Source of the DNA: a bacterium
Lineage (GTDB): Bacteria > BMS3Abin14
Direction: 5' to 3'
NCBI GenBank assembly: GCA_029210545.1
Contig: JARGFV010000057.1
Span: 1-15,670, forward strand
Length of the DNA: 15,670 nucleotides
Made by a program: the position numbers and the translations under genes. The notes below the pieces were generated by a model. That model ran no database searches, was not told the origin of the DNA, and was given only the letters and a program-made list of their open reading frames with translations. Shown here one piece after another: positions 12,517-15,670 of this stretch. The stretch's first letter is position 1; every line of letters begins with the position of its first letter.

Positions 12517-14406
12517 CTACCAGCCTCCTCCCCCTCCACCCCCTCCGCCGCCGCCGGAGCTGCCCCCGCCTCCAAACCCGGAAGAGGAGCCTGGAGCCTG
12601 CGCGGATGATGAGATGGCCGAGGAGAAGGAGGACGCCAGGTTTGAGCTGAACTGCCCCGTGTTCATTCCGTCCCAGTGGCGTCCATGATACCAGCTTGGG
12701 GAATAATCCTCGTGGGCCGCGGCCCTGTAAAGAACACCGGCGAACTTCTCCGACCACTGCTGGTCCACCTCCAGGGCAAGGGCGTAGGGCAGGTACTTCT
12801 CGAACAGCTCCGGGGTCTTGTCTGGAGGGTGGAGTTTTTCCAGGCGGTGTTCTTCGGCTGTGGAAAGATACATTTTAAAACCTTCCACCTTGTCCATGAC
12901 CCGTCGGCCCAGGCTTGTGGGCGCCTTGAGAAGAAGGTAGAAGACGATATTCACCGCGACATATAAGAAGATCGTGGCGATGAACACAAAGGATGTTGAA
13001 GCGCCAAAAGCACTCGTGGCCATGACCAGGAAGAAGGTGAAGATGGCGGCCATGAAATACTTCCTGGTTTTCCACAGGGCAAAGGTGGCTATGGACCAGG
13101 GCATAAGCCACAGGACGATAAAGAGGGTGGGCGGTCCACCCGGCCTCATTCTCCCCGTAAAACCGGACAGGAAAAGGGCCGCCAGGGTGATGAGGACTCC
13201 GGGCACCATGTAACCCGCGTTATTTGCAAAATGGGCCTTCCGGTACTCGCCTTCCAGCATCTCCTTGAGGGCTTCGACGGCGCCTGAGATCTTCTGGTGG
13301 TTCTTCTGCTCCAGCTTGAGGGTCATGCTGTTTCCCGGGAACAGCTTTCTGGCGATCTTCTGCTCTCCCTTCGACAGGGCGGCCTTTGGCTCTTTACTCG
13401 TCCTTTTCAGGGTGTAGGTCCTGATCAGCCCCAGCGCCTTTGTGTCATCGTGGATGGTAATGTAACCTTTAACCGCTAAATTAATGATCGCACTCGCAAG
13501 AGTGCGATCGTCGAACCCCATTTCCATGATGTAACGCATGGCTGCGGGGGACATATCCCCCGGTGGCGTGAATTGGGGGATGACTGTACCCTTTTCCGGG
13601 TCCTTCCCCACCTTTATCCAGACGATGACATAGTAAAGGATGAGTAGGACAAGACCCGCCACGCTGGAAACCAGGTGTCCGTTGTCACCCAGGAACTGCC
13701 GGGTCTTTTCTGTCCTGTCGGGCTCAGCGATAACTCCCTTGGGCCACCCGAGGACGATGGTCAGCCCCTCCCGGGAGTTCAGGGGCCGTCCGCCGGTAAA
13801 ACGCGCCTTGCCCGGGCCGGCGGCCTCCCAGGTGACATTCCTATCCCGACTTCCCTGGGGACCGACGTACCCTTCCATCCTCAGAACATCTGAGGAAACA
13901 GGCTCCGGAAGTGTTACCGTGGCTGTTGCCTCGCGGATAACAAAATCCCAGCCGTTGCCGGTCACGTTCCAGTAAAGCTCGTCGTGACTTTCGAAAAACC
14001 CCAACTGCCGGTCTGTGCGGTAGGAGATGGTGTAGGTGTATTCAGCGGGTTTCAGGAAAACCGACTTCTGACCAAGGTAGACCCGCACCCCGTTGCTGAG
14101 GCTTTCCGTGTGATACGGTTCGGGGTGTCCGTCCCGCTCTACGGAGAGGAGGTCGAACCCGATGGTGACCCGGTTGCCGGCCCTGTCACGGTAGGTGATG
14201 GGAAAGTCCCTGTAGATCCCTCGCTTGATCTGGTCCCCTTCGGCGCGGACCTTGATCGTTTCGGTCACCGTCATGGAACCGTCCGAGGCAACCTCGATAT
14301 CACTGTGCCAGTCGAGGATCTCTTCGACGGCGGCGCTTGTTCCCGGGAAGAGAAGGACAAGGCCAGCCAGTAGGGCGAGGGTCGTTACAGAGCGTCGGGC
14401 GGCCAT
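12517..14406 (-). CDS. DUF2207 predicted membrane protein with glycine-rich tail
   Basis: 629 residues. A signal peptide (about 1-26, ending TSAA) leads into the extracytoplasmic DUF2207 domain (about 28-225), which contains KRGIYRDFPITY, a hallmark of the family. One membrane helix follows (about 247-265), then a cytoplasmic stretch, a hydrophobic group of about four helices (about 398-495) and a cytoplasmic part. The end is an unusual low-complexity tail, GSSSGFGGGG followed by a run of 11 glycines and a final Trp. Such Gly-rich C-termini are known from this family. DUF2207 proteins are regularly encoded beside LemA; the function is unknown, with roles in membrane or envelope maintenance suggested. 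The start ATG overlaps the lemA stop by one base (TGATG), so translation is coupled. Confidence 0.9.
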   Translation of the reverse strand: MAARRSVTTLALLAGLVLLFPGTSAAVEEILDWHSDIEVASDGSMTVTETIKVRAEGDQIKRGIYRDFPITYRDRAGNRVTIGFDLLSVERDGHPEPYHTESLSNGVRVYLGQKSVFLKPAEYTYTISYRTDRQLGFFESHDELYWNVTGNGWDFVIREATATVTLPEPVSSDVLRMEGYVGPQGSRDRNVTWEAAGPGKARFTGGRPLNSREGLTIVLGWPKGVIAEPDRTEKTRQFLGDNGHLVSSVAGLVLLILYYVIVWIKVGKDPEKGTVIPQFTPPGDMSPAAMRYIMEMGFDDRTLASAIINLAVKGYITIHDDTKALGLIRTYTLKRTSKEPKAALSKGEQKIARKLFPGNSMTLKLEQKNHQKISGAVEALKEMLEGEYRKAHFANNAGYMVPGVLITLAALFLSGFTGRMRPGGPPTLFIVLWLMPWSIATFALWKTRKYFMAAIFTFFLVMATSAFGASTSFVFIATIFLYVAVNIVFYLLLKAPTSLGRRVMDKVEGFKMYLSTAEEHRLEKLHPPDKTPELFEKYLPYALALEVDQQWSEKFAGVLYRAAAHEDYSPSWYHGRHWDGMNTGQFSSNLASSFSSAISSSAQAPGSSSGFGGGGSSGGGGGGGGGGGW

Positions 14407-14957
14407 CAGAACTGGACCTTCGGCGCCTCCCGCTCGGTGGCAAGCTCGATCTCGAAATACTCGGCGGGAGGGAACCTGAAGGCGTTGGCGATGAGGTTGG
14501 ACGGGAACGACTGGACCAGGATGTTCATGTCCCTGGCCGCTCCGTTGTAGTAGCGCCTCGAGAACTGGATCTGCTCCTCGATCTCGGCGAGCTGTCCCTG
14601 AAGATCCAGGAAGTTCTGGTTGGCCTTCAAGTCCGGGTATGCCTCAGCAAGGGCAAAGACCTGCCGCAGCATCCCGGTGAGGGCCGTTTCGATGGGAGCC
14701 TTCTCGGCGGCTGTCTGTGCCTTACCGGCCGCGTTTCTAAGCTCCACGACCCTGGTCAGGACCCCCTCCTCGTGACTGGTGTACCCCTTGATCGTCTCTA
14801 CAAGGTTGGGGATGAGATCGTAGCGGCGCTTGAGCTGGACGTCGATGCCGCTCCACCCTTCCAGTACGAGGTTCTTGTTTCTCACCAGCCTGTTGAAGAC
14901 AGCCACCGCCCACAGGACGGCAAGAACGATGACACCAAGAATGATCAGACCGACCAT
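14406..14957 (-). CDS. lemA: LemA family protein
   Basis: 183 residues. A single N-terminal membrane helix (about 3-20) is followed by the helical LemA domain, with conserved EGWSGIDVQLKRRYDLIPNLVETIKGY (32-58 as two adjoining blocks) and, near the end, YYNGAARDMNILVQSFPSN. The protein is membrane-anchored; the molecular role of LemA is not established. AAAGGAG lies 6 bases before the ATG at 14957. It is the first gene of the lemA-DUF2207 pair, a widespread arrangement. A possible minus-strand promoter (TTGATT at 15168-15163, N18, TACTAT at 15144-15139) would give a leader of about 175 bases; the match is only moderate. Confidence 0.93.
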   Translation of the reverse strand: MVGLIILGVIVLAVLWAVAVFNRLVRNKNLVLEGWSGIDVQLKRRYDLIPNLVETIKGYTSHEEGVLTRVVELRNAAGKAQTAAEKAPIETALTGMLRQVFALAEAYPDLKANQNFLDLQGQLAEIEEQIQFSRRYYNGAARDMNILVQSFPSNLIANAFRFPPAEYFEIELATEREAPKVQF

Positions 14958-15185: not shown

Positions 15186-15214
15186 TTGACACCCTATGGC
15201 GCTTTTGCTATATA
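15186..15214 (+). promoter_or_regulatory. strong sigma70 promoter reading into the tRNA-like array
   Basis: A perfect TTGACA (15186-15191), a spacer of exactly 17 bases and TATATA (15209-15214) form a near-consensus promoter. Start is predicted around 15221, only 5 bases before the first repeat unit, as expected for a promoter of a tRNA or small-RNA transcript. A small palindrome AACCG-AAA-CGGTT (15167-15179) lies just upstream. Confidence 0.7.
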
Positions 15215-15225
15215 AATCCGTCTTC

Positions 15226-15670
15226 TATTCCCCGGTCCCGCCTGTGGCGGGATCCCGCTTTAGCGGGATAGAGTCACGCGTTCCGCGTGATTAACCACTT
15301 TGTCGCTATCGGTTGAATATAGAAGTAAAGGTGGATCAGTATTCCCCGGTAGCTCAGTCGGTAGAGTCACGCCGCTGGCGTGATTAACCACTTTGTCGTA
15401 TCGGTTGAAATAGAAGTAAGGTAACATCAGTATTCCCCGGTAGCTCAGTTGGTAGAGTCACGCGTGCCGCGTGATTAACCACTTTGTCGCTATCGGCAAA
15501 AGTTGAAGGAACGCAGTACCCGTATTCCCCGGTAGCTCAGTTGGTAGAGTCACGCGTGCCGCGTGATTAACCACTTTGTCGCTATCGGCAAAAGTTGAAG
15601 GAACGCAGTACCCGTATTCCCCGGTAGCTCAGTTGGTAGAGTCACGCGTGCCGCGTGATTAACCACTTTG
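15226..15670 (+). repeat. tandem array of tRNA-Asn-like repeat units (runs off the window)
   Basis: Five units start with TATTCCCCGG at 15226, 15340, 15431, 15523 and 15615; lengths are 114, 91, 92 and 92, the last being cut by the window end. Units 3 and 4 are identical, and the visible part of unit 5 agrees with them. Each unit reads like a tRNA 5' half: acceptor strand TCCCCGG, TA, and the D-arm GCTCAGTTGGTAGAG. Next comes a 7-bp, 3-loop hairpin (TCACGCG-NNN-CGCGTGA), then TTAACCACTTTGTCG, which resembles the anticodon-loop 3' side and variable region of tRNA-Asn. The 3' acceptor strand CCGGGGA is missing, so no unit can fold as a normal tRNA. Units differ after the TATCGG that follows TTAACCACTTTGTCG. 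A strong promoter precedes the array. Function is unknown; decayed tandem tRNA-Asn copies or a structured RNA are both possible. Confidence 0.75.
15236..15269. repeat. double palindrome replacing the D-arm in array unit 1
   Basis: TCCCGCC-TGT-GGCGGGA (15236-15252) is followed directly by ATCCCGC-TTTA-GCGGGAT (15252-15269), sharing one base. They take the place of the TAGCTCAGTTGGT found in the other units, while the flanking CCCCGG and AGAG are kept. This explains why unit 1 is 22-23 bases longer. It looks like insertion of, or replacement by, a small palindromic repeat. Confidence 0.65.

Follow-up and report, generated by a model that had tools for sequence, protein, structure and literature searches.

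Tandem partial copies of tRNA-Asn carrying palindromes behind a tRNA-Asn promoter: a putative pre-tRNA leader in a bacterial draft genome

The tail of a bacterial contig (15229-15670, forward strand) consists of five head-to-tail units of 114, 91, 92, 92 and at least 53 bp that are built from partial copies of tRNA-Asn. On balance, we lean towards reading this array as the promoter-proximal leader of a tRNA-Asn transcription unit, filled with tandem, partial and inactive copies of the tRNA and probably under selection. A tRNA gene copy normally either works or soon disappears. Here, defective copies remain upstream of what seem to be single-copy tRNA-Asn and tRNA-Phe genes, and they change in number while their non-tRNA parts are as strictly conserved as the promoter. 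If transcribed and selected, they would represent a novel type of pre-tRNA leader; otherwise, they would point to a local process that repeatedly duplicates tRNA 5' halves and sets palindromes at one fixed point. The window analysed is the entire contig C57 (15670 bases), one of the 241 contigs that make up the 2.72-Mb draft genome G000. An initial annotation had the array continuing beyond this window; it does run off the end, but the window edge is itself the contig end, and the count of five units is therefore a minimum. The annotation's observation was confirmed with small corrections and its interpretation partly supported; it overlooked both a sister array at tRNA-Phe and the replacement of anticodon-arm and D-arm sequence by palindromes.

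The tandem structure, first described as five units of 91-114 bp, is real: TRF finds a repeat in the window (period 92 bp, 4.4 copies, 15269-15670), and the units start at 15229, 15343, 15434, 15526 and 15618, unit 5 being incomplete. Units 2 to 5 start with the tRNA-Asn 5' half, and the 24-mer that had been quoted for every unit start holds for these four of the five. Unit 1 (15229-15342, 114 bp) instead starts with TCCCCGGT, followed by two palindromes where the D arm would be (TCCCGCCTGTGGCGGGA at 15236-15252 and TCCCGCTTTAGCGGGA at 15253-15268); a further palindrome (15274-15290) replaces the 5' side of its anticodon arm. The corresponding palindromes lie at 15367-15383 in unit 2 (15343-15433, 91 bp), 15458-15474 in unit 3 (15434-15525, 92 bp), 15550-15566 in unit 4 (15526-15617, 92 bp) and 15642-15658 in unit 5 (15618-15670), which the contig end truncates. 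No difference separates units 3 and 4, and the available part of unit 5 matches them exactly. With both T arm and 3' acceptor strand missing, no unit can be a tRNA: the units have no closed acceptor stem, no T arm and no tRNA covariance-model match, and CCGGGGA, which would close the acceptor stem, is absent from the plus strand, as had been noted for the units. The proposed RNA-family check gave a concordant answer, ARAGORN finding no tRNA in the window and Rfam no match; a known RNA family was likewise rejected for the units, which have no Rfam match up to E 10. The 24-base unit pattern has seven matches in the genome and none for the reversed control, so chance can be excluded; six of the seven lie in the Asn and Phe arrays, and the remaining one is a tRNA-Thr with three mismatches.

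In front of the array stands the promoter TTGACA-N17-TATATA (15186-15214, plus strand). Both boxes (15186-15191 and 15209-15214) and their spacing of 17 are as originally annotated, but the tRNA-like start lies 14 bases beyond the -10 box instead of the annotated 11. Judged by its sequence, this is the native promoter of tRNA-Asn, as the same element lies 14 bases before intact tRNA-Asn in relatives of the same family. It directly precedes the intact gene, with no units, in G003, G006, G001 and G004; in G011 the order is promoter, two units and intact tRNA-Asn, and in G009 and G010 one unit is followed by the intact gene. A search of relatives, as had been suggested, thus recovered units in G011, G009 and G010 (Asn) and in G002 (Phe), and unit number differs among genera from 0 to at least 5. 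Among the 36 tRNA matches above the Rfam cut-off in the G000 assembly, none is tRNA-Asn. Given the order in the relatives and the lack of tRNA-Asn elsewhere in the assembly, an intact tRNA-Asn is very probably situated immediately beyond the end of C57. The suggestion of a decayed, expanding tRNA-Asn locus survives to the extent that tandem partial copies do stand behind the tRNA's own promoter, with a relative carrying the intact gene at the array end. A search of the array found no terminator-like site. Upstream of the promoter and in the opposite direction, the window carries LemA and DUF2207 genes (12517-14957), which also precede tRNA-Asn in G006; G003 and G011 have other neighbours there.

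The second array of G000 lies on contig C46, where an intact tRNA-Phe is preceded by no fewer than three tRNA-Phe units, one of 87 bp, one of 101 bp and a third interrupted by an N gap. Two Phe units stand at the syntenic locus before the intact tRNA-Phe of G002, an assembly consisting of a single 2.16-Mb contig. In G003 the tRNA-Phe segment occurs twice: one copy has the promoter and an intact tRNA with no unit, and the second segment has one unit and a tRNA broken in its T arm. Apart from tRNA-Phe, no upstream 5' copies were found at the other assembled tRNAs of G000. Based on the promoter-units-tRNA order in G011 and on the genome's own array in C46, the units can be classed as tRNA-derived tandem repeats of a tRNA transcription unit (the rtT-like kind), the adjacency to tRNA-Asn in G000 itself being very probable. 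Such arrays provide a possible explanation for breaks at tRNA genes in draft assemblies and for the apparent lack of tRNA-Asn in them.

In Asn and Phe units alike, the 5' side of the anticodon arm has given way to a 16-17 bp palindrome; its left junction is the same in both (after GGTAGAG), and its right junction falls within the anticodon loop. First units carry additional palindromes in the D arm. Two palindrome types are dispersed in the genome, TCACGCCnnnGGCGTGA and TCCCGCCnnnGGCGGGA, together with variants, and the motif TCnCGC-(3-8)-GCGnGA occurs at 112 places as compared to 16 for the reversed control; those places outside the arrays that we inspected have mixed contexts. These palindromes therefore occur as dispersed elements in many copies with a conserved stem, like REP and RPE. 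Rickettsia palindromic elements and REP-type palindromes are short and dispersed, with a constant stem and a variable loop, and are inserted in genes; those described here differ in being only 16-17 bp long and in sitting at a fixed point of tRNA copies. When seven units were compared, every palindrome cell was paired and two of the seven pairs had changed on both sides. This co-variation may stem from new insertions or from hairpin-templated mutation and, because the sequences are few and fresh insertion is possible, the pairing is no proof of selection at the RNA level. The intergenic DNA of G000 also has recurrent runs of 7-base units such as ACTTTGG, AACTGTA and CTGAGAT (L042:196-234, L046:75-120, L015:2276-2324).

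Comparison between genera provides an argument for selection. UvrC of G000 is 63% identical to that of either G011 or G002 at the protein level, and its fourfold sites are 32% (G011) and 38% (G002) identical, which corresponds to saturation. At this distance, unit 2 of G000 matches unit 1 of G011 at 87/91 ungapped positions and unit 1 of G000 matches unit 2 of G011 at 105/113; the two genera thus share two Asn unit types in opposite order. The resemblance extends to what is not tRNA: the spacers agree at 32/35 and 32/37 positions, and 30/32 match in the part of the Phe unit that follows the palindrome (alignment z about 11), so that the non-tRNA unit parts are 86-94% identical while synonymous sites are saturated. 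The promoters align with z of 10.5 (Asn, G000 against G011) and 4.9 (Phe), the flanking controls give -2.8, 0.5 and 1.5, and flanking DNA does not align between the genera. Either selection keeps these unit parts or units have been exchanged between genera, and horizontal exchange could mimic the conservation of the Asn units. At tRNA-Phe, the evidence favours selection over recent exchange, because the locus is syntenic and the first 72 bases of one unit are conserved while its tail (16/28) is not.

The same data bear on the strongest alternative, neutral decay, in which duplicated tRNA pseudogenes without any role would be littered by selfish palindromes and expanded or collapsed by recombination. 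Tandem direct repeats arise and collapse readily, and this reading accommodates the variable unit number, the many genera without units, the genome-wide scatter of the palindromes (112 places against 16 in the control) and the broken gene in the unit-bearing tRNA-Phe segment of G003. It sits poorly with non-tRNA parts conserved like a promoter despite saturated synonymous sites, and with the fact that the palindromes occupy the same places in units of both tRNAs and of a distant lineage. We regard it as possible, though doubtful.

For the reading that we prefer, a selected leader, we propose the following steps. A segment that begins at the tRNA start and extends into its body would have been duplicated in tandem behind the native promoter, with the intact tRNA kept at the array end; this arrangement is visible in G011, G009 and G010 and presumed in G000. 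In the copies, palindromes have taken the place of the 5' anticodon arm (and, in first units, of the D arm), presumably by overwriting, and T arm and 3' acceptor strand are missing. Recombination between units would then alter their number, as the identical units 3-5 and the range of 0 to 5 or more suggest. RNase P releases tRNAs from their precursors; judging from the promoter position, the absence of terminators and what is known of pre-tRNA processing, array and tRNA would be transcribed as one precursor in which each unit forms its own hairpin and from which RNase P would free the tRNA that follows the last unit. Finally, as the weakest step, the folded array may be kept by selection as a cis-acting leader affecting the processing or stability of the precursor, a suggestion made because the non-tRNA parts are conserved. 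Several observations run counter to this model: the units are dispensable, being absent from several genera; the intact tRNA-Asn is not seen in the G000 assembly; and the array of G002 is predicted to disrupt the acceptor stem of the tRNA, which would be costly unless co-transcriptional folding differs.

Each unit is predicted to fold as a single long, imperfect hairpin, with the tRNA 5' half, D-arm sequence included, paired to other sequence of that unit; the exception is unit 1, which folds as separate palindromes. Fold z-scores are -3.2, -2.2 and -2.7 for Asn units 1, 2 and 3, -4.1 for Phe and -4.7 for the distant genome G035. We considered that self-folding units might insulate the tRNA. 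Equilibrium folding of the G011 precursor is compatible with this (acceptor stem pairing of 0.93 with the array and 0.94 without it), but in G002 pairing falls to 0.007 with the array against 0.99 without it, and because of this an insulating role is not supported in general; folding during transcription may differ from the equilibrium prediction. The hairpins also bear on the proposal that the array is a decoy or sponge, multi-copy tRNA-like hairpins binding a tRNA enzyme, a nuclease or a small RNA in trans. The units are multi-copy and structured, stand behind a tRNA promoter and retain the acceptor 5' strand and D-arm sequence. However, T arm, 3' acceptor strand and anticodon are gone, the D-arm sequence is paired in the fold so that little tRNA shape is left, and long hairpins are not cloverleafs and match no known RNA family. 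We find no support for such a decoy beyond copy number and, from the sequences, it seems unlikely.

Across 386 genomes, clear units are restricted to this family and one distant lineage. The GGTAGAG-palindrome pattern was found in four of the 386, one of the four not being an array; the match in G304 was set aside, having an imperfect palindrome and no tRNA context. A covariance model of the units scores 62-80 bits in G000, G002, G010 and G035, and nearly all other matches reach at most 47 bits. We rejected the latter as units: those inspected are ordinary tRNA-Asn genes, and most matches in this range are of tRNA-Asn length. G035 belongs to another family, related at the domain level only, and its array also ends at a contig end; at the start of a second contig of this genome, an open frame, possibly the terminal part of a GIY-YIG protein judging by its sequence, precedes a tRNA-Asn-like stretch with a palindrome. 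Tentatively, these arrays may represent a new class of structured RNA, in which tandem tRNA 5'-half hairpins with a palindrome in place of the anticodon arm would serve as selected leaders of tRNA-Asn and tRNA-Phe in one family, and which would have arisen, or been acquired, independently in the lineage of G035.

The units could also be taken for tiny, non-autonomous mobile elements of 91-101 bp that insert in the D-stem/anticodon region of a tRNA and bring a new tRNA 5' part; unit boundaries that restore an intact tRNA, the GGTAGAG junction common to Asn and Phe units and the similar units in a distant lineage fit this picture. Nevertheless, after the palindrome the Asn units carry on with tRNA-Asn sequence, TTAACCACTTTGTCG, and for this reason they are copies of the tRNA and not foreign DNA. 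No unit was found away from tRNA loci within this family, and viral contigs gave no match to the units, on which ground a viral origin was rejected; insertion by mobile elements is thus improbable. An assembly artefact from collapsed or chimeric repeats, a worry raised by the initial annotation and by identical 92-mers at a contig end and the N gap in the tRNA-Phe array, is hardly credible, as independent genomes, the single 2.16-Mb contig of G002 among them, have homologous arrays with an intact tRNA at the end, and concerns only the exact unit number.

We found no description of such arrays in the literature searched. The closest known case may be the repeats of the E. coli tyrT operon, which encode rtT RNA and reportedly lie downstream, measure about 178 bp and contain about 19 bp of the tRNA 3' end. 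As there, the arrays are tandem repeats in a tRNA transcription unit, each with a piece of that tRNA; here, however, the units lie between promoter and tRNA, contain the 5' half and carry palindromes. The rtT family gave no Rfam match up to E 10, and the repeats are not downstream of tRNA-Tyr. Polycistronic tRNA operons likewise place several tRNA-derived units behind one tRNA promoter, but in the arrays only the last member is a tRNA and the other units form no cloverleaf. Genomic islands that integrate repeatedly can leave tRNA or tmRNA gene fragments behind, as at ssrA in Dehalococcoides (PMC3146451). Partial copies beside an intact RNA gene are common to both situations; as that account of ssrA has it, the fragments come with islands, whereas here the copies are less than 115 bp long, have no genes between them and lie upstream of the intact gene. 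At a spacing of 91-114 bp there is no room for integrase or island genes, which speaks against accretion of integrative elements.

Several minor observations concern the surroundings of tRNA genes. In genomes of the family, 8 of 19 small GIY-YIG genes (7 at tRNA, 1 at tmRNA) lie within about 1.5 kb of such a gene (L163, L174, L175, L177, L180, L181, L188, L191), and a decayed tRNA-Asn copy in inverted orientation separates tRNA-Asn from a GIY-YIG frame in both G004 and G011. As a present explanation for the array, GIY-YIG nucleases were rejected because G000 carries only UvrC. Many tRNAs of G000 are close to contig ends. On C46, a 96-bp repeat after the tRNA-Phe terminator (L002:1868-2063) runs off the contig end; it includes part of the tRNA-Phe 3' half in inverted orientation, along with a palindrome. 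Inverted T-arm pieces occur 54-79 bases downstream of tRNA-Arg(tct), tRNA-Thr(cgt) and tRNA-Pro(ggg), and tRNA-Arg(tcg) and tRNA-Arg(cct) are immediately followed by tandem repeats (62 bp and 85 bp; L049:5474-5619, L051:1-162) that also run off contig ends. Lastly, a module consisting of CATTCGACGC, a terminator and TTTTTGCTCATGrCCTCCGGCCCCGA recurs behind tRNA-Arg and tRNA-Asn genes of different genera, as seen downstream of tRNA-Asn in G001 (L212) and at L049:5347-5619 in G000.
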